A DNA stretch of 64,000 nt from Polychytrium aggregatum (Eukaryota > Chytridiomycota > Chytridiomycetes > Polychytriales), in assembly GCF_025602895.1 (NCBI RefSeq), contig NW_026516240.1, positions 124,001 through 188,000 of the forward strand. The letters are read 5' to 3'. Below, piece by piece: positions 1,956 to 61,750 of the stretch. Every line of letters starts with the position of its first letter. The first letter of the stretch is position 1. The notes beneath the pieces are model-generated. The model saw only the letters and a program-made list of their open reading frames with translations. It did no database searches and was not told the origin of the DNA. Both the position numbers and the translations under genes were made by a program.

Positions 1956-4900
1956 ATGAGCCAGGGTTTGTATCGACCTCCATACCTCCGCGGATCCAAC
2001 CAAGACTCATGCACCGCCGAAGGGACTTGCTGCTGACTCTCCGGGATTCGTATGAACAGCCGACTTTGATGAATTTTTGAAGCGATACGGGCTGGAGAAG
2101 AGCAAGAACCTGTTCCTGGAGAACGACTATGACACAATCGATCTTGTAAGTGACATTCCGGTCTGCAGATAAACAGGACTGCGGCTCATGCTTCTTGCCA
2201 TCATAGATCCTTGAGCTGACCGAGGAGGACATGAAGGAGATGGAAATGAAGGGCGGCACCATCAAGAAGGTCCTCAAGGCACAGAAAGAACACAGACTTG
2301 GCGGCCCAGATGCTCCACCCCTCGCAGCAGTAACTGGGGTCGCTGTGGCGAGTAGCAGCCAGCACGGCACTTCTGGAGTTACCGGCGAGACTTACAGCCT
2401 CGTGCCAGTCTCTCGCAGCCCAGAATATTATCAACCAGCCGAGATTCTACCACGCTGGGAGTGCCAGCTTGAGTGCAGCAACCACGATGTGTTCATCAGG
2501 TACGATCCGTCAACAGCCACCTGGACACTCAACATCATAGCACCAGACTATACTGACATCGATCGCCATGCAGCTATCGAGTTTCGAGCGAGAGCGATAA
2601 AGCCAATCTGCTCGTCGGCGCGCTCACGTCCAGGAAGAAGAGCGAGGAGGAGCTGCATCCCTATCTCGACCACCTGTGCCTTCGCGACGGCCAGGACTGG
2701 GAGCAGGGCTTCATCAACGGCCTCCATCGATCGCCAGTGATTGTGTTGCTGCTCTCCGAGGAGGGGTTAAAGCGAACGCATGAAGCCCATTTGGTCCCCG
2801 ATAACCAATTTCTCGAGGTAGGCCAATCGTGCATCGCATCGGCCCAACGGCGTTGTCTCCACAACGCCAGATCGTGTGAAGCTGATGGCCAGAAACGTTT
2901 TCGTCGCAGGTGCAACATGCTCTCAAGGCAATGATGGACGCTGCTGCCTCTGGCAGCACTATCATCACCCAACCCGTCTACGTCTGGTCGACAAAGCAAC
3001 TGGGCGGCGAGGTCCTCCAGAAGAAATACTTTCCCAACCCAAACGACTTCCCGGATTCAGCTCCCGCTCACCGAAAGAGCCCGCTGTTTGACGGCCGTCC
3101 AATGACCATCCGTCAGACTTTCAAGGAGCTGATGCAGATTCAGGCACTTGATGCTGTTGACGGAAACGCATTGAAGCGGTAGGTCCAAGACCAAGCAATA
3201 AGAAGTGAAGATGACACACTTCTGATCTATCTCTAGTACCACAGACTTGTGCCAAACATCCGCGAGCTCGTTTCCAAGTCAAAGAGAGCAACGTTCGATG
3301 GCGAGCTCTACCACCAGAGCCGACCCATCGTCCTCGCTGCCGACGAAGACTCGCAGCTCCGCGTCCTGCTCGATCCCATCGACTTTGACCCCGACAGGAA
3401 GGCGCTCGAGGATCTGTATGTCGAAGGCACCCGCCAGTGGCTGTTTGACCATGTCACTGCCTGGGTCGACGACGACGACAACGCCGACCGGGTCCTGTGG
3501 GTCAATGCCGTCGCCGGTGTCGGCAAGTCCGTCGCTGCTGCCCAGATCGCCAACATCCTGCTTGGCCGGGACCAGCTGGCGACATCGCTGTTCCTCAAGT
3601 ACAACGACACCCGCAAGAACAACCCCCGCATCCTGCTGACCACGATCGCATATGGACTGTGTCGCTGGTACGCACCGATCGGCCGTCGGTTCCTCGACGC
3701 TGGCCACACCAAGGACGACCTCGACAAGATGAGCATCCCGGACCTGTTCAAGGCCTTGATTGAGGATCCACTCGAGGCTCTTGGCCAGTACCGGCCCAAG
3801 GGAGCCGTCGTGGTGATGGTCGATGGACTGGACGAGTGCCATCCGCGCGACGAGATCCTGTCGCTCCTGGCCTGGCGACTCACACAGCTGAAGGACGAGT
3901 CCCGGATCAAGCTGCTGCTGACGTCCCGCCCCGAGGCCGACATCAGGGATGCCTTCCGAGGAGTGCCGACCACGACGATCGAGCCGTCGAGCGAGGACAA
4001 CATCCGCGACCTCCGGGTGTTCATCGACCATCGTCTCAGGGACCATCCCAGCCTCAGCGAGTCGGACCGCACCCAGGCGATCTCGGTGCTGCTGGACCAG
4101 TCCAAGACATTCGTGTGGATCAACCTGATCCTCAACACCGTCGAGCACGAGCTGGAGACTCCCGAGCCTGGATCGACGCCGTGCGAGGAGAGCGACGCAG
4201 CATCCACAGCCGGCCCAGTGACACTCACCACGATCAAGGACATCAACGACAGCGCCGCCGATGTCGGCCAGCTGTACCACAAGACATTCGCCAAGATCCA
4301 CTCGCAGTCGAACCACCCGGCCGAGCTGGTCACGGTGGTGTCGGCGATCGCCACGGCCCAGTCGATCTTGACCCCACAGATCATCGCTGATGTGTTTGGA
4401 CTCGAGATCGGCGTCGTTCGCGAGTGTCTCAAGAGCCTCAGTCTGGTCCTCGATCCTGGCGCCAATGGATTGGGTCCCCGAGGCAGCCAGTCCACCAACA
4501 CCGAGGTCAAGTTCAACCACAAGTCGGTGGCGGACTATCTCCTCGGCGATACATCGACTGGCCATCCATGGCATGTGTCGGACTCGTTCCACACGGTGTT
4601 TGCCAAGGGATGTCTCGGCGTGATCCTCTCGCACGAGCCAGTGATCAACATCTGCGAGATCTTCGACTTTCACGACGATATCCCAGACCTCGAGGACAGG
4701 GTCGCAGTCAAGATCACACCGTCGCTGCGATACAGCGTCGCGCACTGGATCACACACTTTGTGTGGTGTGTGGAAGGAGTGGCCGAGTCGAGTCCGGTGT
4801 GGCAGTCGGCCGAGATGGTCGATGTGGCAGCGGTGCTCACTCGGTTCGTCAAGACGCATGTGTTCTTCTGGCTCGAGTGTGGGTCGCTCACACATGTGGT

Positions 4901-7900
4901 CAGGCCGATCATCGAGCAACTGGCTGTGCTGCGAGGAGTGATCGCCAAGGCACCCAGCACCATCGTCGACGACACCACGAAGGAACTGGTCAAGGACACG
5001 TATCGATTCATCCGCGAGTTTGCCGACCCGATCATCAAGAGTGCACCACAGGTGTACAACTCGGGATATGCATTCACACCGAAGGAGACAACGATCTACA
5101 AGACATATGCCGACCAACTCGAGGACAAGATTCCGTTCCTGGTCACCTGCGGTCCAGCACCCACCTGGGATCCGTGTGTGATGACACTCACAGAACATAC
5201 CAGCGCCGCAACATCCGTCGCCATATCGACACTATGGAAAGTGGTCGTTTCCGGGTCCAGCGATGGCGCAGTCCGGATCTGGGACTCTGTCACAGGCATG
5301 CTGAAGTCTGTGCTGTATACCAAGAGAAGCTATGTGAACTCCGTGGCAATCTCCCTGGATGGCAAGTGGATCATATCAGGGGCCAGTGACAAGGCTGTTA
5401 GAGTATGGGAGACCACATCCGCTTGTCAGGTCGCAGTTTTAGAAGGGCATACCGACCACGTTCGCTCCGTCGCAATCTCATCCGATAGAAATTGGATCGT
5501 ATCTGGATCGAGAGACAAAACCGCGCGAGTTTGGAACGCCGTCACCGGGCAGTTGGTACACACTCTACAAGGCCATCGAGCAAGCGTCTACTCCGTCGTG
5601 TTTTCGCCAGACGGAAGACATATCGTGTCTGGATCCGGCGATGGCCAAGTTCGGCTCTATGATGTTCTGTCAGGCGAGCTGAAGCAAACGCTCCAAGGCC
5701 ACTCGGACTGGGTCAATGCCGTCGCAGTGTCCTCGGACGGATCCACAATCGTCTCAGGATCGAGCGACAAAACTGTCCGAATCTGGGAGTTCCAGAGCGG
5801 TCGGCTGCTCCAGATACTCGAAGGCAGCCCTGGCCTTGTGCTCTCTGTTGCAATTTCTCACTATGGTCTGTCGGTCGTCGCCGGCTCAAACGACGGAGCC
5901 ATCGCCGTCTGGAACCGCACTGTTTCTCAGAGTCCGGTGGTCCTCGAGGGACATTCCGCAGCAATCCGATCGGTGGTAATCTCCTCGGATGCTAGAACTG
6001 TCTGTTCAGCATCAGAAGACGGGCTAGTCAAGATATGGGAGGTCGCCGGCCTCGTGTATAGGCCGCCGTGTTTGCCAGGACGCACCGCTACGATGGACTC
6101 AGTCTTGGGAGAGCCATCGCTCCTGTGCCCCAAAGCGAACGATACGGCCGATAATTCGATTGGGGGACTGTCTCGACGTTCCAAGGGCCATACCGACTGG
6201 GTCACATCTACAGCCGCGTCGCTCGATGGCCGACACTATCTCACTGGCTCAGACGACGCGACCATTCGAGTCTGGAACGCTCAAACAGGCGAGCTGCAGA
6301 GGACGCTTCATGGCCAGAATGGATATATACTGTGCATTGCAGTTTCACCAGACGGAAGGACGCTGTATTCTGGGTCGAGCGACCACACTGTCAGAATATG
6401 GAATCTGACCACCATGAAGACCGAAGGCGAATACAAGGTGCACCACGACTGGGTTAGCTCCCTGGCCGTTGCTTCGGATAGCAACCACGTCGTTTCTGCC
6501 TCCAAGGATCGCACCGTCAAAATTTGGTGTGCTGCAAATGGACTGGTGAAACGAACGCTCGAGGGACACGGAGGCCATGTCAAGTCGGTGGCTCTGTCGG
6601 CGAACGATGAGATCGTCGCGTCGGTGTCAAACGACTGCACTATCAAGATATGGGACTTTGCGACCGGCCAGCTCCGAAAGTCACTCTCCGGAAACTCAAC
6701 CTCGCTGTGGGCTGTCGCCGTCTCGCCAGACGCACGGGTTGTCGTCTCGGGCTCCAACGACAGCATGATAAGGATGTGGGATGTTGCCTCGGGGACACTC
6801 CTCAGGGTTCTGTCCGGACATGGTGCCGATGTCCGGGGCTTGGCCATCACCCCAGACGGCAGGACGCTTTTCTCTTCCTCGAACGACAAAACCGTCAAGG
6901 TGTGGTCCACGACGACGGGCGAGCTGAAGCATACCCTTGAAGGTCACAGCGACTACATCCTCTCTGTTTGCGTGTCCTCTGACGGCAAAACGGCCATGTC
7001 AGGGTCCAGTGACAAGTCTGCTCGGGTTTGGGATGCTGAAACAGGTCGGCTGAAGCTGACGCTACAGGCCTTCTCCAGCCAGGTCTCCGCAGTCGACACT
7101 TCGTCCGATGGCGTGACGGTCGCTACCGGCTCGACTGACGCTTTTGTGAGAGTCTGGAACGGTGTGAGTGGACGACTCTGTCAGATTCTTGATGGACACG
7201 GCTGCGGCATTACCTCGGTCTCGGTGCGGCCAGATGGTCGGGTCCTGCGCTCAGTAGATGTCTCTGGCCGATGGATCACATGGGAGCTCGTTGATGCACT
7301 CTTTGTCCAAGCAAACGAGAACATCCAAGGGCATCCCTCAAGTCGCAGCCAGGCGAGCGCGGGCCTCTGGCAAAAGCACCCCAGCCCACCGTCTCCCTAC
7401 TGGATGCGGCATGGGCACCACATCCTCAAGATCCCGCCTCGACTCTTCTCGGACAAGGCACAAGTCACGAACGCATATGGAGCACTCGCTGTGGCAACTC
7501 GGGCGCTCTTGACGATCTGCGTAAGTAGGCAGGTGGTCTCATCGCAGGCTCGAAGAAGCGTTATCTGACCTGCGATTCTTCTCCTGCAGCCCATCTATCT
7601 CAAGTGCCCGCAGACCCATTTCTGGGCAGCACTCTGTTGGCAGAGCAACGCATTCTGTCAAGACAGTATGGACAAGGCTCGTCGGGCATATCGGATCGCT
7701 GCTGAGGCCGGCTTCGCTGACGCACAGTACCATCTGGGCATGTGCTTCCGAGATGGTATCGGGACGGCACCCGATCTGCCCCAGGCTCTCGGCTGGTTCT
7801 CTCGGGCTGCTCAAGCTGGCCATGTCCCAGCTCAATACCACACAGCGTTGTGCTTTGAGCAAGGAGCAGATCTAGCTCCAGACCAAGACAAGCTGGTTGA

Positions 7901-8900
7901 ATGGCTGGAACGAGCCGCTCGCGGCGGATATCTGGATGCACAAATCAAACTCGGCTGTCTGCTCGAAGAGCGGGCACAGAACGACGCGGACTGCCGGCGG
8001 GCATTTGAGCTGTACTTGGAAGCCGCCAACGGCCGAAGCACAGAAGCTCAATATCATCTCGGTCGCTGCTTCGAGAGAGGCATCGGTACCCCAGCCGACA
8101 TAACACATGCTCTTCACTGGTACGGACTCGCAGCCAATCAGGCCCACCCAGAAGCAAGACGCCGACTTCTGCCGCTCTCGCTCGAGTACTCCAGGCGCGG
8201 CAACACTGAAGCCGAGTTTGCTCTTGGGCTTTGCTTCGATCGGGGAATCGGTACCAGTCCGGAACAGGGCAAGGCCATCGAATGGTATCGCAAGGCGGCA
8301 AGACAAGGCCACACGGATGCGCAGAGTCGACTTTTTGACCTGCTGGAGGACATCGAGGGCTCAACCCCCGAGGAGCAATGCGAGTTGGCACGGTGTTTCG
8401 AGGATTGCAAGGGATACCAGGCCAGTAACCGGCTGGCGCTTGAGTGGCTCCTCAAAGCTGCCAAGCAAGGCTGTGCAGCTGCAGGGAGTCAGCTGCTTCG
8501 TCTATCGGGTTCACTGGCAGCCCAAAACGATAGAGATGCCAAGCTGTATCTTGGCATTTGCCTCCGTGACGGCTATGGAACCGAGCCGGATCTACACCAC
8601 GCGCTCTCCTGCTTCCGTGAGTCCGCTGAAGCAGCCGATCATCGAGGCCAACAAGCTCTCTTCCGATTATCCTTGGACATGGCCAAGCAGAGACACAGCA
8701 AGGAAACAGTTGGTCTCGGGCTCTGCCCCCACCAAGCTGATGGCATTACCCTGAACGTGGATTGGGCGACAGAGCCGCTTCAACAAGCAGCCGATGTTGG
8801 CCACGGCGAGTCCAGTCACGGGATTGAAGACGCGCTGGTAGACGATAAGCTAGTATCCGACCGGACATTGAGCACTCGAAATCAGCTGTTGAGCCAATGA
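1956..8900 (+). CDS. SAM-TIR-NACHT-WD40-Sel1 NLR-like receptor
   Basis: Exons 1956-1965, 2060-2145, 2207-2499, 2574-2817, 2910-3178, 3245-7520 and 7590-8900 join in phase to about 2162 residues. SAM domain ~4-63. TIR domain ~124-240: DVFISYR is assembled across the 2500-2573 intron and is followed by CLRDGQDWEQG and DNQFLE; Glu173 aligns with the catalytic Glu of NADase TIRs. NACHT ATPase from ~370: Walker A GVGKS at 392-396, Walker B VVVMVDGLDE, sensor LLLTSRP. About 15 WD40 repeats at ~949-1653, enough for two propellers. Sel1-like repeats at ~1727-2100. By family logic WD40/Sel1 sense, NACHT oligomerises on ATP and SAM-TIR is the effector, possibly cleaving NAD. The first exon encodes only MSQ plus one base, and its donor is GTTTGT. 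The order is unusual: SAM-TIR recalls SARM1, while NACHT-WD40 is typical of fungal NLRs. The domains are firm; the single-transcript model is strong because all six junctions keep phase. Confidence 0.85.
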
Positions 8901-11125: not shown

Positions 11126-11293
11126 AACTGTACAGTCAATCCAGAGAGAAACGGGCCAGTCACTTTCTGGCATCAGCGACCCAAGTCTGCTGATCCGTAG
11201 GCTCCAGTGAGCAAGCCATGCGATAGTTTCCCGCCCTGGTTAGCAACCTCTTTGATTTGGTTGGTTTAGTTTTGAATACACTCGACCGATCCA
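11126..11293. repeat. Dispersed repeat, copy B
   Basis: Second copy of the repeat at 1337-1510, same orientation, starting 70 bp after the Myb stop codon. It lacks 9 bp relative to copy A, so on the minus strand the open frame (SSVFKT...KRL.TR.GNYR) is kept in both copies. The remaining 11294-11841 shows no supportable gene. Confidence 0.6.
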
Positions 11294-11841
11294 TTATGGC
11301 GATGATCGACTGATATTGATGTGTCGATGTGGGTGTCAGCCCCAGGTACTCCCTCCGAAGACCCAAGACTCGGGGGTTTTGTTGAACGTGCTCGCTTTGC
11401 GATGGCGACGCAACCCTCACGGATTCACGGCGCTGCCTCGCCATTCTCGAAGCTCGGAATGGCGGTGCGAGTCGGCATGGGGGACATAGTGGATGTCACA
11501 ATCTCAGGCCAGCTGGATCTGCCCAGAAATCAGCCAGCACTTGGAAGTGTGGGCGCCGATCACGCATACGTCATTCGCACTGAGCAGCCACACAAGCCCT
11601 CGACAGGCGTGAAGCGCTCCGCTTCGGTTTGGAAAAGCCATTGGGTGTTTCATTTCGTTTTGGAAGCGCAGCATACCGGCCCGATTCAGGCGCCCAGCAT
11701 CGGCTACTTCGCTCTGCTGGTTTGTGCGCTTGGCAGACGCAGGGCTTTCTCACGCTCAGCCTCCCGATACCAACGGACGACCCACCATCGCTGCAGCAGC
11801 TGTCTCTCTATCCCCACCCCTCTCCACCCGGCCGAGCCAGT

Positions 11842-24100: not shown

Positions 24101-26459
24101 CGACCGACTCAAAGGCGAGGCGGATCGCCTCCGCACCCAGTACGAGGAAGATTTGTTCAGAACCAGACGGGAGCTTGAAGATACCAAGGCCTCGCTTGCC
24201 GAGATGGGTCAATCCAAGGGCGCCGAGGTTCAGGGCCTGATCACACGCTTCAGTGCTGAAAAGGAGGAGCTCGAGCAGCTCAACAGGGTCAGTGAGCCGC
24301 CGATTCCGCGGTTGCCGATGCGGTTGCAGACACGTGTGCTCCCATCACCGACTCGATTGTTGACTGGTCGTTTGTATGCTGTCGAGTAGACTCGCCAGGC
24401 GCAAATTGAAGATCTGCGACGACGCCTCGATGACTTGGCCGCCGAAACACAAAAGCTGAAGCTGGTACGTCTCCGTGTGCAGGCATACAGCCTCAGGCGA
24501 TATGGGCCGGGCGATGCGGTGCCGATCACTTGGGTTTCCGAGCCGCACCTGGATCGACTGTGCTCTCGAGGCTGCACCACTCACGCCGTGACTGAACTTT
24601 TGATACAGAGCAAAGACCAAGAGTCATCCCTGCTCCAAGGCGGCCTCGATCAGACTCTGATTGCTCTCTCGACCTTGCAGAAGGTAGGCGCAGCGCATTT
24701 GAGTACAAGCAGCGGCAACGAACTCGACGTGCGATGCTGTGAAGATTTAAAGGGCTGTTGCAACCTATCTTGCTCGACACACTGGAGCAGTGGTAGCCAT
24801 ATTGCACGCCGGGTTGCATGTCCATACAAATCGCACGACCTCACTCTGTTTGGCTTGCTCCACAGACGTCGCAAGAGAAAGAACTGGTGCTGCAGGGTCA
24901 GCTCGACCGAATCAAAGGCGACCACAATGTCGTTGTCACCCGCATGCTTGGTAATACGGACTGGAGCAGTCAGCCGCGTGTGCCGATGCAATAGACTCAG
25001 GAAAGATGAATCGCAGAGCTGTGATATCCGCGAGCCCTCGTGAATGCTCTGTTCATTGCTGACTCGGTGCAACCGGAAAACACATCGGGCACGCAGATCA
25101 TGTTCTTCAGACCTGCGTCCTCAAGGTCGAGGATGCCATCTACGAGCTCGAAAGCCCTACCCACCAAGGAAATCAGACGGCGTCGCCAGAGTACGTCCTC
25201 TCGCTCCTCGAAAAGGTCCAGACCATCTGCAATGACTTTGGGCTCAGTGTCGTGCGCCTCAATACGGTGAGTGGCACTGTACATCCGCTGCTTGGGTTGT
25301 CTGCACTGCGACACGACAAGAGGGAGAGGGGGCTTGGCCGTCGGCTGTGTCGGCTAGGTCTGCTGCATGGCGGGCTTGAACTGACAAGATCCATTCGTGC
25401 GTCGCGCCGATGACGATCCAGGGCGGCGAGCCGTGGGATGTCATCAACACCTCAAACGCCTTTGCTCACGTTGTTGGCCAAGTCATGCACAACTCCAAGG
25501 GTGTTGTTCGTCTGGCTGCCGAGGACGAGCTGGCCGAGCAGATCCTTGCGATCGTCAAGGCCGGCGCCATGGAAGTCCGCGGCTTTTTCCTGCAAACCCA
25601 GTCGCACGCTCTGGCCTCAATGGCCCCCGACCAACGCTCAAGCAACGTCCTGCAGATCTCCAAGGAAACCCAGAATGTGCTTGCCAAGGCCGGGCCCGCG
25701 ATCGAAAAGCTGATCGTGAAAGACGTGAGCAACGTCCGCGCGGCCACCGATGACCTCGGCGATATTGTCGAGCGCGAGATGACCAACGCCGCCCGCGCCA
25801 TCGAGGAGGCTGCCAAGAAGCTCCAGGAGCTGATGAGCAAACCCCGCGCTGTCTCTGGAATCGACCTCAACGTCCACGACGCCATTCTTGCCGGCGCCAT
25901 GGCCATCACCACCGCCATCGCCAACCTCATCAAGTGCGCCACGGCTACGCAGAAAGAGATTGCCGCCCACGGCCGTGGATCCAGCACCACGGGTGCGTTC
26001 TACAAGAAGAACCACAAATGGACTGAGGGCCTGATCAGCGCCGCCAAGAGTGTTGCGGTTGCCACGACCTACTTGGTGGAGTGTGCCGACGGTGTCGTCA
26101 GCGGCACGCACACGATGGAGCAGCTGGTTGTGGCCGCCGGCGAGGTCTCGGTCGCCACGACGCAGCTGGTTGCGGCCTCTCGCGTGCAGTCCGTCCCGTT
26201 CAGCAAAACCCAAGACCAACTCGAGAACGCCGCCGTGGCTGTGCGGGAGGCCACCAAGCTTCTGGTCAAGGCCGCCAAGGACGCTGCCAAAAAGTCCAGC
26301 GAAGATCGCGTGGACGACGAGCTGGCCAAGATGGGCCGCCACGAGTTCAAGGTCAAGGAGATGGAGCAGCAGGTGCTGATTCTGGAGATCGAGAAGAAGC
26401 TCCAGGAGGCCCGATACCGCCTGGCCCAGATCCGCAAGCAGGGCTACCAGGAGCTGTAA
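21151..26459 (+). CDS. SLA2: SLA2/HIP1R endocytic adaptor (ANTH + coiled coil + I/LWEQ)
   Basis: Links clathrin coats to actin at endocytic sites. ANTH domain: 21151-21501 (KKALSPEETAPKQKHVR, VLTFKALIVFHKLV), 21648-21717 (VLKQAIHETQW) and 21885 on (GYGNLIQAYVQFIFAKLEYH). Exon 1 to exon 2 joins HPS to VLKQ in phase. Later ANTH parts include YETINDLISLLDKI and FYFECSTLRYLSSLITIP. A long Gln-rich coiled coil follows (22983-24700), split by about six short introns. The C-terminal I/LWEQ (THATCH) actin-binding module lies in one long exon ending at 26459 (NVHDAILAGAMAITTAIANL, KWTEGLISAAKSVA), followed by a terminal dimerisation helix with EIEKKLQEARYRLAQIRK. At least 14 exons. The Fanzor element sits 80 bp past the stop. 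Confidence 0.93.
22046..22095. repeat. 10-bp tandem repeat in SLA2 intron
   Basis: About five copies of TTGCTTGGGT just after the donor of the third exon. Confidence 0.9.
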
Positions 26460-26539
26460 ATCTGGGCCCGGACCCGCATCCGGCAGCGCTGATCGTGGCC
26501 TGCAACATCGCTCGGCTGATGTTACACTTTATTCAGAAA

Positions 26540-26550
26540 AAAACGGGACA
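26540..26550. repeat. Left inverted repeat of the Fanzor element
   Basis: AAAACGGGACA; exact reverse complement at 30123-30133. Similar blocks lie at ~1349, ~11141 and ~61290. Confidence 0.65.
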
Positions 26551-26585
26551 ATATAGCCGTTTCCATGAACAGGTAGTATGTGCTG

Positions 26586-26600
26586 TGCTTGCGTCAAGCA
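26586..26600 (-). ncRNA. Candidate omega-RNA hairpin in Fanzor 3' region
   Basis: TGCTTGACGCAAGCA on the minus strand is a perfect 6-bp stem with a 3-nt loop, 22 bases after the Fanzor stop and about 36 bases before the element end. In characterised TnpB/Fanzor loci the guide RNA scaffold comes from this 3' region and the guide from the flank beyond the element end, here the SLA2 3' flank below 26540. The hairpin is seen; its role is inferred. Confidence 0.35.
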
Positions 26601-26622
26601 AAGCCACAAGAAATAAAACAGA

Positions 26623-28989
26623 TCACTTTGGTAGCCTCCGAGTGAAGACCGCCGGTCGCTCTCCGGTCTCCACAATCGACCTCCACACTGCGATCATGTT
26701 GCGCGCCGCATTGACGTCGCGATTCCACACTGTCCGGCAGCTGGGATTCTTGCAGCTCCTGACAAAGTGGGAATTCGCAACACTGGGCGCATCGAGTCCT
26801 TCCAACCGAACTGGCTCCAGGCACTTGGAGCACACTTGCGAGGTGTTGAACTCGTTCGTCGAGACTACCTTGACGCTTCCATGATGGTGATTGGGACGGC
26901 GTCGGTGGTGCTCGAATTGCTCAAAGTACTGAGCAAATCGCTGCCTCCGAGGGCTGGATGCATAGCCCTTGCCTTGACGCCATGACGCATTGCCAAAGGC
27001 GATCACCACATCGGTCCGTATCGGGGCGTGCTTCAGGACGGCCTTGCACATCCTGTCAACGGCCACTTGGCGCCTCTTGTGACCCGTGAATCGATGGTGG
27101 CGAGTCTTCTTGCCAAGGTGGAAGTCGAGCTGCACTCGCAGCTCCGGTCGCAGGACATGGGTGAGATGGACCTTGAAGGCCTCCGAGGACGACACCTTGG
27201 GCGAGGGGGTGGTCGACATCCAGGTCTCGATGCCGAGTCGCTTCTTCATGGTGTTGTGCCACTCAGTATTGGACTTGTGGCCACACATGTGCTGGTAGTG
27301 GCCATTGGAGAATGAGACCACCTCGTCTTGGTGGCCCGGTGCTTGGATGACCGCCGTGAAGATGGAGCCGACTCCAGGATCGATGCCAATCCAAGTGGTC
27401 TTGTCGGGGTCTGGGTCGCCGATGTGGGCCTGGATACGCTGCTCGGCAGTCGGAGGAGGCTCGATGGTCTCGGTGTGATCGGTTCGAGGCAGAAACTTGA
27501 CGAGACCGATGGTGCATCCAATGCCATCGGTGCTGATCTCGTAGTTGAACAGCTTCTTGTTCACGTCCCGCTCTTGGAAGAGGGAACTACGCAGCTTGAA
27601 GCAACTGCGCCAGAGACGATCCTGGTTGTTGACACCGTCATCACCTTCTTCCTTGAGCTTGTCCCTGGTGAGTCCAAGGCGCTTCTTTGGACCCAGGAGA
27701 TTCCAGAGAGTGACGGTGTCAATCTTGACATACTTGGTCCTTGCAGTGCATAGAGGAACCATCGTGCACACGGCCGGAGGAGTGTCGACGGCGAGCTGCT
27801 TGAGTGCCCAGTTGATCCTGGCGGCCAGCTTGTTGATCTTGGACTTGGTGGTGCCGAGCTCAGACTTGGCCTTGGTGAACCTCTTGTCGTCGGAGGGAAT
27901 GCCTCGGGCAGTGAGCTCGTCCAGCTTGGCCTGGCGCTGCAGCTCGGTGACTCGGAGGGCGGGCATGTCACAGTCGATCCACTTGTGGACATTGTCGACC
28001 ATCTTGTCCCGGGCGAGGATTCCCACATGGTGTGAGAGGCGATGGAGGGCCCGGAAGCGGTCCTGGTCGCTGCTGTACCGAAACTCGTCCAGGACGTGGC
28101 CAAAGTCTGGATAGAGGAACTCGAGATCGGCCTTGGGTGGAGTCTGCCCTGGTTTCTCGAAGAGCTCGAGACAGGCCTCGATGGCTTCGTGCTTATGCTT
28201 GTTGGCTGGGAAGACGGCAGCGCAGAAGCGGCGAAGGAGTCGCCAGTAGGCCAGGTTGAGGTGGGTGGTGCAGTTGGTGGCATAGGCATTGACAGCCAGT
28301 GTGAGAAGCTGACTGTGAGCGCCATCAGGCAGACGAGGGGCCGGAGGCAGGTCTGCGTGCCGAGTGATCTGGTAGTCGCGAAAGGAAGCGACCAGATGCT
28401 CGTTGTATTTCTCATTGTCCCCGGTCGGGGAGAGGGCACCGGCCTCGACAATCGTGAAGCATTGGCGAACGAAAGCAGGTGTGGACTTGGAGATGACGGG
28501 GACGGGAAGATCCTGCTCGATGCACCGGAGGATGTGCAGGTTGAGCAGCCTGGATGCCTCGAACTGGATCTGGGTCATGGCCTCGACGGTGGCCTGGATC
28601 TTGTCGCGGAGAGCGGGATTGAGACAACAGCCATCCATCGTCTGCTTGAAGCAGCTGAACTGAGGGGCGGATGACCTTCCATCCACGAGTGGGACGACAG
28701 AACTCTTGAGGGGGTGATATTCGGGACATTTGCTGGTGTTGCTTCGCTCGTGATCGGTGCCATCGCACTGGCGACATCGCTTGACAGGACCAGATGAGGG
28801 ACCAGGCTCGGTGGGATCGACATCCATTGGATCTGCAGAAGCAGTGGTGGTGAGCGACGGAGCAACAGACGACCAAGCATGCGTGGGGTCAGAATACGAA
28901 CCAGAGACAGGCTCCGACTGTGACTTGGCTTTCTTGGGCCTGGGTGGCCGAGGCTGGCCATCACCGGTACCCTTGCGCTTCGGAGGCAT
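26623..28989 (-). CDS. Fanzor RNA-guided DNA endonuclease (eukaryotic TnpB homologue)
   Basis: Single 788-residue ORF without introns. The N-terminus is basic (PPKRKGTGDG, PPRPKKAK), a likely nuclear signal, followed by a CCHC-like knuckle at C72/C75/H80/C88. Split RuvC nuclease: RuvC-I WIGIDPG with Asp537; a strand VVIAFGNASW (661-670) where TnpB proteins usually carry the RuvC-II Glu but this one has Gly; VVSTNEFNTSQVCSKC with Glu713, the likely relocated Glu; a zinc ribbon C720-C723...C746-C751; and RuvC-III NRDVNAARN with Asp758. Family knowledge: Fanzors use an RNA from the 3' end of their locus to cut DNA. All catalytic acids are present and there is no stop or frameshift, so it is probably functional. 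A TATA-like box lies upstream. The long N-terminal region and association with a mariner-type transposase resemble transposon-linked Fanzors. Confidence 0.93.
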   Translation of the reverse strand: MPPKRKGTGDGQPRPPRPKKAKSQSEPVSGSYSDPTHAWSSVAPSLTTTASADPMDVDPTEPGPSSGPVKRCRQCDGTDHERSNTSKCPEYHPLKSSVVPLVDGRSSAPQFSCFKQTMDGCCLNPALRDKIQATVEAMTQIQFEASRLLNLHILRCIEQDLPVPVISKSTPAFVRQCFTIVEAGALSPTGDNEKYNEHLVASFRDYQITRHADLPPAPRLPDGAHSQLLTLAVNAYATNCTTHLNLAYWRLLRRFCAAVFPANKHKHEAIEACLELFEKPGQTPPKADLEFLYPDFGHVLDEFRYSSDQDRFRALHRLSHHVGILARDKMVDNVHKWIDCDMPALRVTELQRQAKLDELTARGIPSDDKRFTKAKSELGTTKSKINKLAARINWALKQLAVDTPPAVCTMVPLCTARTKYVKIDTVTLWNLLGPKKRLGLTRDKLKEEGDDGVNNQDRLWRSCFKLRSSLFQERDVNKKLFNYEISTDGIGCTIGLVKFLPRTDHTETIEPPPTAEQRIQAHIGDPDPDKTTWIGIDPGVGSIFTAVIQAPGHQDEVVSFSNGHYQHMCGHKSNTEWHNTMKKRLGIETWMSTTPSPKVSSSEAFKVHLTHVLRPELRVQLDFHLGKKTRHHRFTGHKRRQVAVDRMCKAVLKHAPIRTDVVIAFGNASWRQGKGYASSPRRQRFAQYFEQFEHHRRRPNHHHGSVKVVSTNEFNTSQVCSKCLEPVRLEGLDAPSVANSHFVRSCKNPSCRTVWNRDVNAARNMIAVWRSIVETGERPAVFTRRLPK

Positions 28990-29116
28990 GGGGGCAGAGG
29001 ATGCTGGATGCCTGCCAGTGGTACTGGTCAGAGCAGAGACTTTTTTTATCGTACAATAGCGCGATGGTCAGATCAAGGCGAGATGAGGGAAGAAAGCAGC
29101 AGGACGAAGGTGTGGC

Positions 29117-29123
29117 ATTTATA
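29117..29123 (-). promoter_or_regulatory. TATA-like box of the Fanzor gene
   Basis: TATAAAT on the minus strand, 128 bases before the Fanzor start codon; no other TATA is seen between it and the start. Confidence 0.4.
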
Positions 29124-29227
29124 CCCGAGAGCAGGAGCCCGTCTTTGCGGGCTGGTTGGAAGCGACCCTGTTCAAAAATCGCCGAGAGGTTCAAGCCAGG
29201 GATTTGAGCGTGAAAATGGCGGCTTGA

Positions 29228-29291
29228 TTGGAGGGACAACCCCAAATCGGTGGGGACTCAACCCCAAAATGATGGGGACTCAACCCCAAAG
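29228..29291. repeat. Alternating G4/C4 hairpin array
   Basis: Two full 22-bp-spaced units GGGGACTCAACCCC preceded by a shorter GGGACAACCCC. Each unit can fold as GGGG/CCCC with a 6-nt loop. The array begins exactly where the transposase reading frame loses family similarity (after NPIENFF) and ends before the Fanzor leader. Confidence 0.85.
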
Positions 29292-30064
29292 AAGTTCTCG
29301 ATGGGATTGAAGTCGGGTGAGGCAGGTGGGGTGAAGATCACTGACCATCCTCGGCGCTCGATGCAGTCCAGGACAGCCATTGTCTTGTGCATGCTGACAT
29401 TGTCCATCACAATCACAGAGTCGTCTGGGAAGCTCGCTCGCTCAAAGAACTCGACCATCGAGTGTGTCTTGAATGATGTGGGGATGTACATGCGATGCAG
29501 CACACCAGAGTGGTTGATGGCAAATGCAGCCGAGACAGACTTGTGTTTCATGTGATTGCGCTGGCGAAGCGGAGCACCCTTCGGTGAGTATCCGTAGAGA
29601 GAGAAAATGGATCTCCTGATCCCTGTCTCGTCGACAAAAACGAATCGCCGCAGGTCAATGGAGCGGGCCTGGTCCCTGAACTGTGCCACTCGCTCATCCA
29701 GTCGCTTGGACTTGTAGAGGTGTGTTGCCCTCTTGTGTGAGAGACCTGCTCGGTGGATGGCAGTGTGGCAGAGTGAGAGCGACACTTTCCTCTGGAGGAT
29801 GGACTCGAGCTTGCACCGCAGCACAGGACCAGTCTGGAACGGGTCCTGTTCAATCAGGGTGCGAATGACTGGACATGCCTGCTCAAAGAAAGTGGATCTG
29901 CGAGCTGGGACCCGGGATGGGTCATCCAGCTTGCATCCTCGGTGCCATCGATGGATGGTGCTCTTGGATACACTGAATATGGAGGCGACCTTACGCAGGC
30001 TATGGATGAGGGCGTAGCATCGCAATGCGGCGGTGCGAAAGTCGGATGTGTGGCGAATGGTCAT
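29258..30064 (-). CDS. DD34E transposase (Tc1/mariner-IS630 type), C-terminally truncated
   Basis: 268-residue intronless ORF. N-terminal helix-turn-helix: LRKVASIFSVSKSTIHRWH (23-41). Catalytic core: FVFVDETG with Asp145, VIVMDNVSMHKT with Asp221, and PDFNPIENFFG with Glu256; 34 residues separate the last two acids. Family members usually continue for several dozen residues after this Glu. Here the frame enters the G4/C4 hairpin array and stops 12 residues later (VESPSFWG), so the C-terminal helix is missing. It would cut and join the element ends in the nucleus; activity is doubtful. It lies upstream of Fanzor on the same strand, 268 bp away. Confidence 0.88.
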   Translation of the reverse strand: MTIRHTSDFRTAALRCYALIHSLRKVASIFSVSKSTIHRWHRGCKLDDPSRVPARRSTFFEQACPVIRTLIEQDPFQTGPVLRCKLESILQRKVSLSLCHTAIHRAGLSHKRATHLYKSKRLDERVAQFRDQARSIDLRRFVFVDETGIRRSIFSLYGYSPKGAPLRQRNHMKHKSVSAAFAINHSGVLHRMYIPTSFKTHSMVEFFERASFPDDSVIVMDNVSMHKTMAVLDCIERRGWSVIFTPPASPDFNPIENFFGVESPSFWG

Positions 30065-30122
30065 GGCCAGCGCGCGATAACATTGGGTAACAAAATATTC
30101 GATGAATGGTCAAAATCCCGGG

Positions 30123-30133
30123 TGTCCCGTTTT
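30123..30133. repeat. Right inverted repeat of the Fanzor element
   Basis: TGTCCCGTTTT, inverted match to 26540-26550, about 60 bp upstream of the transposase start codon. Confidence 0.65.
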
Positions 30134-30452
30134 ATATTGGATCGCCTGTTAATCTGCAGCGCTCATGAAATGTAACAGAGCACCCAAAAGGAAACAAGAG
30201 CACCTTGGGCTGTGCTGGGCTGGGCTGGGCTTGAGTGATGTGAGGGAGGGAAGCCCTTCTCTCTGTCCGCAGCAGACCAGGCGCCATCGATGGTGGCCCT
30301 CGCTCTTTGGCAATGGCACACGGCCCATCCACCACCAGCGAGACAGATGAACCTCAACTTCATGGCAGAACAATGTCTCAGACGAATCGCGTCGCTGGCC
30401 CTTTGGCGCGTCGCCTTTGTTTGCTGGCACAACCCTGTCTGGTTGCGACAAC

Positions 30453-61282: not shown

Positions 61283-61750
61283 TATTCACAAAATTAAACG
61301 GGACGGTACGAGACCGCTGATCTCTTTCGAATTATATCCTCACATCAATTATTCACAACGACCATTCACCTCCGTGGAAACAAAGCAAGGTCCATGTCTC
61401 CAATCCCTATCGTTTGAGGCCCCTTTGCTCTTTCAAGCGGTTCCACTGCCCCCCCCCAAAAAAAAATGAGAGTTAGCCTGCATAGGTTTATCAGGTAGGT
61501 TCAAAGCGATGTGGCCAGCGAACCAAAATCCGGCATCAAGACATCAACGCGACCAAGAGCATGGTTGTGGTGTGCAAATCGATCACCACTCATCGAGATC
61601 GATCGCTTGTTCAAGACCGGCATCCTCAAAGCCAGATTTCTGTCAATGAATGGATTCGGCAACCTCCGAGTGAGGATCGCAGATCGCCCCCTGGTTTCCG
61701 CAATCGCCCTGTGGTCTCCACGCAGCCATGGCCAGCGCACGATTGAATGA
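61283..61750 (-). mobile_element. Possible relic of the Fanzor-linked transposon family
   Basis: 61286-61298 (TTAAACGGGACGG) resembles the left inverted repeat at 26540. At 61724-61750, CATGGCCAGCGCACGAT followed by CATTG matches the transposase start region at 30062-30085, in the same orientation. The span between is only ~450 bp and holds no intact transposase or Fanzor frame, and no right inverted repeat is seen. Best read as a deleted, decayed copy. Confidence 0.35.

Follow-up and report, generated by a model that had tools for sequence, protein, structure and literature searches.

A large family of IS630/Tc1-mariner transposons with a Fanzor1-type nuclease in Polychytrium aggregatum, and a target-adjacent motif predicted from its insertion sites

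Why would a cut-and-paste transposon carry an RNA-guided nuclease in addition to its own transposase? The question is raised by a 64,000-nucleotide stretch from the chytrid Polychytrium aggregatum (assembly GCF_025602895.1, contig NW_026516240.1, positions 124,001 to 188,000; hereafter the window), in which an earlier note had described a Fanzor nuclease and a DD34E transposase packaged in one inverted-repeat element. Here, this element is placed in a large family of IS630/Tc1-mariner cut-and-paste transposons, which probably keeps its Fanzor1 because the nuclease protects or spreads the insertions. The evidence comes from the gene content and ends of the copies, from selection on the nuclease gene and from a target-site motif found on one side of the insertions.

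The element occupies window positions 26525-30148 and holds both genes on the minus strand, enclosed by imperfect 26-bp inverted repeats which resemble each other mainly in their inner half (Table 1); the packaging of both open reading frames (ORFs) between the same repeats is thus borne out. The ends named earlier, AAAACGGGACA / TGTCCCGTTTT, are indeed present in the window, but make up just the inner portion of the terminal repeats. In 30 loci fetched from the organism's own genome (window locus included), the elements terminate in CACTTTATTCAG... and ...GGAT(T/C)GCCTG and are flanked by TA, the copy boundaries being TA directly followed by CACTTTATTC on the left and GCCTG directly followed by TA on the right. 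These shared ends, reaching out to TA, define the element coordinates given above, and the earlier 11-bp ends were ruled out as true termini since homology among copies continues beyond them. Among distinct flanks, 25 of 27 on the left and 42 of 45 on the right carry TA, and six paralogous empty sites of copy L009 contain it in single copy. This is the TA target duplication and terminal inverted repeat structure of an IS630/Tc1-mariner transposon.

Table 1 Features of the element and its flanks in the window
Feature	Position	Strand	Evidence or remark
TA target duplication, Fanzor side	26523..26524	.	TA before CACTTTATTC at 25/27 distinct left flanks; single TA in six L009 empty paralogues
Left (Fanzor-side) terminal inverted repeat CACTTTATTCAGAAAAAAACGGGACA	26525..26550	+	261 genome matches, 0 in control; diversity 1.4% across 26525-26553
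Candidate guide-RNA scaffold, non-coding, Fanzor stop codon to element end	26525..26622	-	Position and size, diversity, predicted hairpin
Fanzor1-type RNA-guided nuclease (by sequence), 788 aa, one ORF	26623..28989	-	
Spacer with two 22-bp direct repeats (29237-29280), adjoining the point of transposase C-terminus loss	28990..29257	-	
IS630/Tc1-mariner DD34E transposase (by sequence), 268 aa, C-terminally truncated relative to the 310-aa form	29258..30064	-	
Right (transposase-side) terminal inverted repeat TGTCCCGTTTTATATTGGATCGCCTG	30123..30148	+	Family form matched 416 times in the genome, 0 in control
TTAA right flank	30149..30152	.	TA duplication 30150-30151 after an extra T; A 30152 is part of the one-sided TAA motif

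The nuclease frame is uninterrupted in the window copy. PF07282 (TnpB/Cas12f zinc ribbon) matches it with 38.1 bits against a Pfam cut-off of 26.3, and D537 within GIDPG (535-539), E713 and R757-D758 are in place, which confirms the 788-residue Fanzor with catalytic residues and zinc ribbon described before. The published Fanzor motif, D-X(125-275)-[TS][TS]-XX-C4 finger-X(5-50)-RD (PMC3627910), is matched by D537, T716-S717 (178 residues between), C720/C723/C746/C751 and R757-D758. A DPG signature and a displaced catalytic Glu (Ealt) are likewise named for Fanzors in the available text of PMC10711439, and both appear to be present: the stretch VVIAFGN (661-667) has no Glu, and E713 directly precedes the finger, which in our own reading, made independently of any alignment to a solved Fanzor, would be the displaced residue. 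The transposase scores above the Pfam cut-off for DDE_3 and, with the NCBIfam IS630 model NF033545, reaches 114.7 bits in the window copy and 121.4 bits in the longer form of locus L017 (cut-off 100). Its catalytic spacing is D-75-D-34-E, with 34 residues separating D221 from E256, as judged from sequence that of a DD34E enzyme of the IS630 family.

Other genomic copies with the same ends, on whose existence the earlier note had made its proposal depend, were looked for and found. The own genome (64.7 Mb, 418 contigs) was searched and the best candidates were scored, namely the best 40 of 1,257 for DNA and the best 57 of 1,256 for Fanzor protein, so that copy counts are lower bounds. The best 40 DNA matches include other copies with about 96% identity to the window element. 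Allowing up to 3 mismatches, the search located at least 416 ends of the right type and 261 of the left, while a reversed-pattern control gave 0, which excludes chance matches as their source. Lists of 100 ends per side served for pairing, with every left end and 85 right ends used: 51 of the 85 exact right ends have an exact left end at less than 6 kb, 43 of these pairs being 3.2-3.8 kb long, 3 measuring 1,110 bp and 5 measuring 279-381 bp. All of the best 57 Fanzor protein matches span residue 1 or 2 to 788, and 51 of them lack an internal stop. Among the 30 loci, the Fanzor ORF exceeds 780 aa in 23, and it stands together with a full-length transposase in 8 (counting the same-site pairs L025/L028 and L026/L027 as four). 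Divergence between copies is star-like, with a mean of about 4%.

The Fanzor gene is under purifying selection. The sample comprised 27 copies, i.e., the 30 loci minus the same-site duplicates L020, L027 and L028, with both L002/L003 (one site) and both L017/L019 (common right flank) retained; the loci were selected as those most similar in DNA to the window copy rather than at random, and the same set served for linkage and diversity. In Fanzor, singletons have a ratio of nonsynonymous to synonymous polymorphism (pN/pS) of 0.46 (N/S 109/97), intermediate variants one of 0.36 (79/91) and common variants one of 0.38 (52/54), with 7 stop variants observed versus 14.9 expected. For the transposase, values of 0.74, 0.31 and 0.32 were obtained in the same classes, with 4 stop variants versus 4.6 expected. 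In 11 of 12 Fanzor bins, diversity is higher at third codon positions than at the first two. On the basis of pN/pS and codon-position diversity, Fanzor is conserved about as strongly as the transposase. Intact frame and purifying selection together suggest that Fanzor in this family is functional, or was until not long ago; by virtue of selection and full-length copies, the family as a whole was apparently active until recently.

Reduction of 62 loci to 45 distinct right flanks leaves 42 that start with TA, of which 38 read TAA, and 36 of the 45 have A or T at position four. Of the 2,682 TA dinucleotides in the window, only 13% are followed by A. In the left flanks, on the Fanzor side, the corresponding signal would be a T before TA, and just 8 of 27 distinct flanks have it; hence, the motif is one-sided (A in 41/45 right versus T in 8/27 left flanks; Fisher p 9e-8). 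Genome-wide, exact right ends are followed by TAA in 192 cases and by TA plus another base in 8, while exact left ends show T-TA in 35 and other arrangements in 153 (35/188); these counts include both contigs of duplicated or diploid sites and are therefore non-independent, a duplication which the set of 45 distinct sites removes. The rule is broken at four of the 42 TA-flanked sites (L007, L026, L030, L041), and three further sites are off register (L001, L016, L043); the window copy itself is followed by TTAA, with one T extra compared to the usual TAA. The possibility that the constant A is a base of the element was ruled out. Since the six empty paralogues align to the joined L009 flanks gap-free at the junction, the A appears to be genomic. 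This test concerns one site and is imperfect alone, as the junction falls within a run of A and a 1-bp gap is found in an A run about 15 bases further left.

Read on the Fanzor strand, the empty site is 5'-(A/T)T-TA-guide. The same geometry is known from SPu-1 of Spizellomyces punctatus, in which two conserved bases, CA, lie outside the left inverted repeat, ghost loci included, and for which a target-adjacent motif (TAM) of CATA was measured (Saito et al., PMC10432273). Because of this match, WTTA is predicted as the TAM of the window family. A/T-rich TAMs have precedent in GtFz1 of Guillardia theta, whose TAM is TTAA (PMC11423790, PMC10432273). For a Fanzor-mariner element, no report of a one-sided target motif was found in the open-access literature searched.

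The candidate source of a guide RNA is the left end, where 98 bp separate the Fanzor stop codon from the terminus. Diversity in this region is 2.2%, versus 5.6% in the spacer and 5.5-6.5% in the right non-coding end, and its position and size are as in SPu-1. Pairing of the terminal repeat with a sub-terminal stretch is predicted for the window family and for a diverged derivative in the L007 flank, and, in a different form, for a second Fanzor family of the same genome; similar pairing has been described for other Fanzor1 RNAs (PMC10711439). Deletion derivatives also retain this side, with at least 166 bp of it in the three that were read (L061, L062, L069). We infer that a minus-strand transcript of the left end may serve as guide RNA, with the flank beyond the end as guide. 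No Rfam match was obtained in 26300-30300.

Taken together, a mechanism can be proposed as follows. The left end would be transcribed on the minus strand, and the nuclease-RNA complex would cut any chromosome in which 5'-(A/T)TTA is followed by the guide sequence, e.g., a sister or homologue emptied by excision. Repair of the cut would then copy the element back in. Occupied sites would be immune because the element separates the TAM from the guide target. Hence, copy retention or homing is predicted as the role of Fanzor.

Several observations count against this proposal. None of the NCBIfam TnpB models exceeds its cut-off on the protein (guided_TnpB reaches 26.5 bits versus 100, in the finger region only). 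Searches against solved structures gave one weak match each, to LaTranC with the single sequence (E 0.2) and to SpuFz1 (8gkh) with a profile of 12 copies (E 0.15). The candidate RNA, as a whole 150-nt fold, has a z-score of -1.23, and 24 of 200 shuffles fold equally well. Nine of ten tested sites are found on two contigs, both occupied (as judged by flank-match distance) and none empty, and the tenth, found on one contig, is occupied; this fits homing and is equally expected of near-identical haplotypes, with which the flanks of only 0-0.6% difference in four same-site pairs also agree. Another empty-site test covered 20 joined sites, but the L009 repeat took all 40 scored places, so that it is informative for L009 only. 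Moreover, the Fanzor-side T is found at 19% versus a background of 13% (p 0.03 on non-independent counts), and hence the left side is not wholly neutral. Finally, it may be the transposase that prefers this motif.

The latter is the alternative which survives best, and we hold it to be a real, if tentative, possibility. It states that the one-sided TAA reflects a preference of the transposase complex, which distinguishes two unlike ends, and that the Fanzor TAM was merely fitted to it or Fanzor is a passenger selected for other reasons. Such a distinction could draw on the two repeats, which match mainly in their inner half; furthermore, derivatives without the Fanzor gene (L061, L062) also sit at TAA, as do both right-end matches of a diverged relative (with a search pattern unable to show G). 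Target preferences of Tc1/mariner elements beyond TA are in general roughly palindromic, whereas here the left side shows little motif (19% T). The derivatives, for their part, keep the putative RNA region, so that Fanzor could act on them in trans. In addition, SPu-1 has the same one-sided layout, and there it corresponds to the tested TAM (PMC10432273).

A stronger version of the retention proposal is prompted by the interiors of the copies, which look like a patchwork. Association between common variants falls from an r2 of 0.47 below 10 bp to 0.05 at 60-120 bp and 0.04 beyond 250 bp (shuffled 0.04); it is largely gone within about 60-120 bp, and beyond 250 bp the four-gamete fraction is 98%. 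CpG decay was ruled out as the cause, as transversions alone and non-CpG sites alone lose linkage equally. Same-site pairs with flanks only 0-0.6% apart differ in their interiors by up to 3.2%. The counts are 46 (L016/L020), 40 (L026/L027), 128 (L002/L003, gaps included) and 1 (L025/L028) differences, and 122 for L017/L019, which have the right but not the left flank in common. Over the right-hand 2.3 kb, 78 differences were counted for L021/L053, 7 for L051/L060 and 0 for L055/L058. The patchwork could stem from repeated repair from other copies or from assembly consensus errors, e.g., of short-read polishing. With regard to polishing, fewer differences between same-site partners lie near the right end (25 pairs, including the same loci fetched twice), but in two pairs some are found within 33-76 bp of the end, and the second contig of the window site differs in structure, as described below. 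As an assembly artefact, the patchwork would blur the selection estimate, a further point against the retention proposal.

In this stronger version, RNA-guided homing would operate for a DDE transposon: only insertions with WTTA on the transposase side would be re-copied and persist, and cycles of excision, re-cutting and repair would overwrite the interiors from other copies, so that the copies behave as one freely recombining population. We consider this rather unlikely as a full account. Cited in its favour is the window site, where the full element stands on one contig and a 308-bp deletion derivative with the derivative junction of another site on the other. This second contig (C368) has the same flanks; of the element, 214 bp remain at the left and about 94-97 bp at the right, where the derivative shows the variants of the window copy's right end, and its internal junction is that of L061 at a different site. 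Derivatives of 308 bp were located at C1:868244-868551, C146:518257-518564 and C368:84247-84554, and the two that were read (L061 and L069) have an identical internal junction with a 3-bp overlap.

For the window copy itself, the earlier suggestion that it is recent and may still be active was not sustained, given a divergence of 3.3% from its nearest sampled relative, a truncated transposase and the C368 derivative. The transposase ends in VESPSFWG, 8 residues which replace the last ~50 of the 310-aa form; near the lost C-terminus, the window holds about 36 bp versus about 140 bp in copies, and the alignment breaks there in 25 of the 40 main matches. In terms of its coding capacity, the window copy thus appears non-autonomous and probably depends on full-length transposase from elsewhere, while the family does include full-length copies. 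Its Fanzor may still work. Because the interiors look patchwork, the intactness of any single copy needs confirmation from raw long reads.

That the whole family is decaying, with Fanzor out of use, seems unlikely to us. The mean divergence of about 4% between copies would suit decay, as would the attrition of frames, with 23 of the 30 loci having a Fanzor above 780 aa and 9 the 310-aa transposase; it is opposed by a Fanzor pN/pS well below 1 and by the shortage of stop variants reported above. Least of all do we expect Fanzor to serve against competitors, with copies nested in other repeats bearing guides that cut those repeat families. Nested copies do exist, since L017 and L019, and probably L013, are inserted in copies of the second Fanzor family and L009 sits within a repeat that has empty paralogues, but just 5 of 30 joined flanks match another fetched locus besides a same-site partner, and the six L009-site paralogues, in which alone signs of cutting were looked for, are intact.

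The preferred retention proposal can be set beside known systems, compared here by their published descriptions as far as these were available. Elements that combine Fanzor1 with a Mariner-like transposase, and have terminal inverted repeats and TA duplication, have been in print since 2013, namely PGv-1 and PUl-1 (Bao and Jurka 2013, PMC3627910). By description rather than by sequence, the window family is set apart from these through its IS630-scoring transposase, its deletion derivatives and its one-sided target motif; moreover, the related group that includes PGv-1 is described as single-copy (PMC3627910), in contrast to hundreds of ends here. Close viral relatives of Fanzor and transposase were sought in IMG/VR and none was confirmed, using short exact peptide patterns which detect close relatives only. 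SPu-1, encoding SpuFz1, also resembles the window family in having a Fanzor1 ORF in ~30-bp inverted repeats with a putative TA duplication (PMC3627910, PMC10432273), about 80 nt from stop codon to end which encode the RNA, ghost loci, and conservation of bases beyond the end that lies opposite the RNA (PMC10432273). It differs in that its repeats contain no transposase and its conserved bases are CA, with TAM CATA (PMC10432273), whereas the window family has (A/T)T and a predicted TAM of WTTA. GtFz1 resembles the family in its A/T-rich TAM, TTAA, near the predicted WTTA (PMC11423790, PMC10432273), while its locus, as far as described, seems to lack inverted repeats and transposase. In IS200/605 elements, TnpB acts as a drive or retention factor, its guide is the flank and its TAM is the insertion motif (PMC11870625). 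These bacterial elements move by TnpA, whereas the window family has a DDE transposase with TA duplication. TnpA of IS200/605 is a single-strand HUH transposase.

The element is therefore of a known kind, but the large family of Fanzor1-mariner elements, with its TAM prediction, is new. In work from 2023, the role of Fanzor for eukaryotic transposons was called unknown, and SpuFz1, the best-studied case, comes from an element without transposase (PMC10432273). The window family offers full-length Fanzor with its full-length cognate transposase; both genes show selection, and the genome by itself suffices for a TAM prediction in numbers. Whether Fanzor aids transposon persistence, as TnpB does, thereby becomes directly testable, and the one-sided-flank test could yield TAM predictions for further multi-copy Fanzor elements without experiment.

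Some minor observations complete the picture. At the right ends of L005 and L016, the terminal bases are replaced, by eye, by an ~11-bp target duplication, as if repair, rather than the transposase, had made the joint. By their left flanks, L013, L017, L019 and L062 are nested in other repeat elements; L017 and L019 lie in the second Fanzor family, as L013 probably does, and L009 in a repeat with many empty paralogues. As L017 and L019 share their nesting site and differ in their outer flanks, this composite seems to have moved as a unit. Decayed fragments of the second family, whose left end is TACAGTCTATCCAG and whose Fanzor shows 53-65% identity over matched C-terminal parts, also occur in the window at 1338-1843 and 11131-11312. 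A 56-57-bp piece at 61655-61711, 77-79% similar to the Fanzor 3' end and guide-RNA side, stands without the remainder of an element. The element is bordered by an I/LWEQ-domain gene, whose end lies at 26459, and by a triose-phosphate-transporter-like ORF that starts at 30307. Further away, positions 3249-7568 hold a 1,439-aa ORF which by eye resembles an NTPase with WD40-type repeats, adjoined by an ORF with Sel1-like repeats at 7668-8900.

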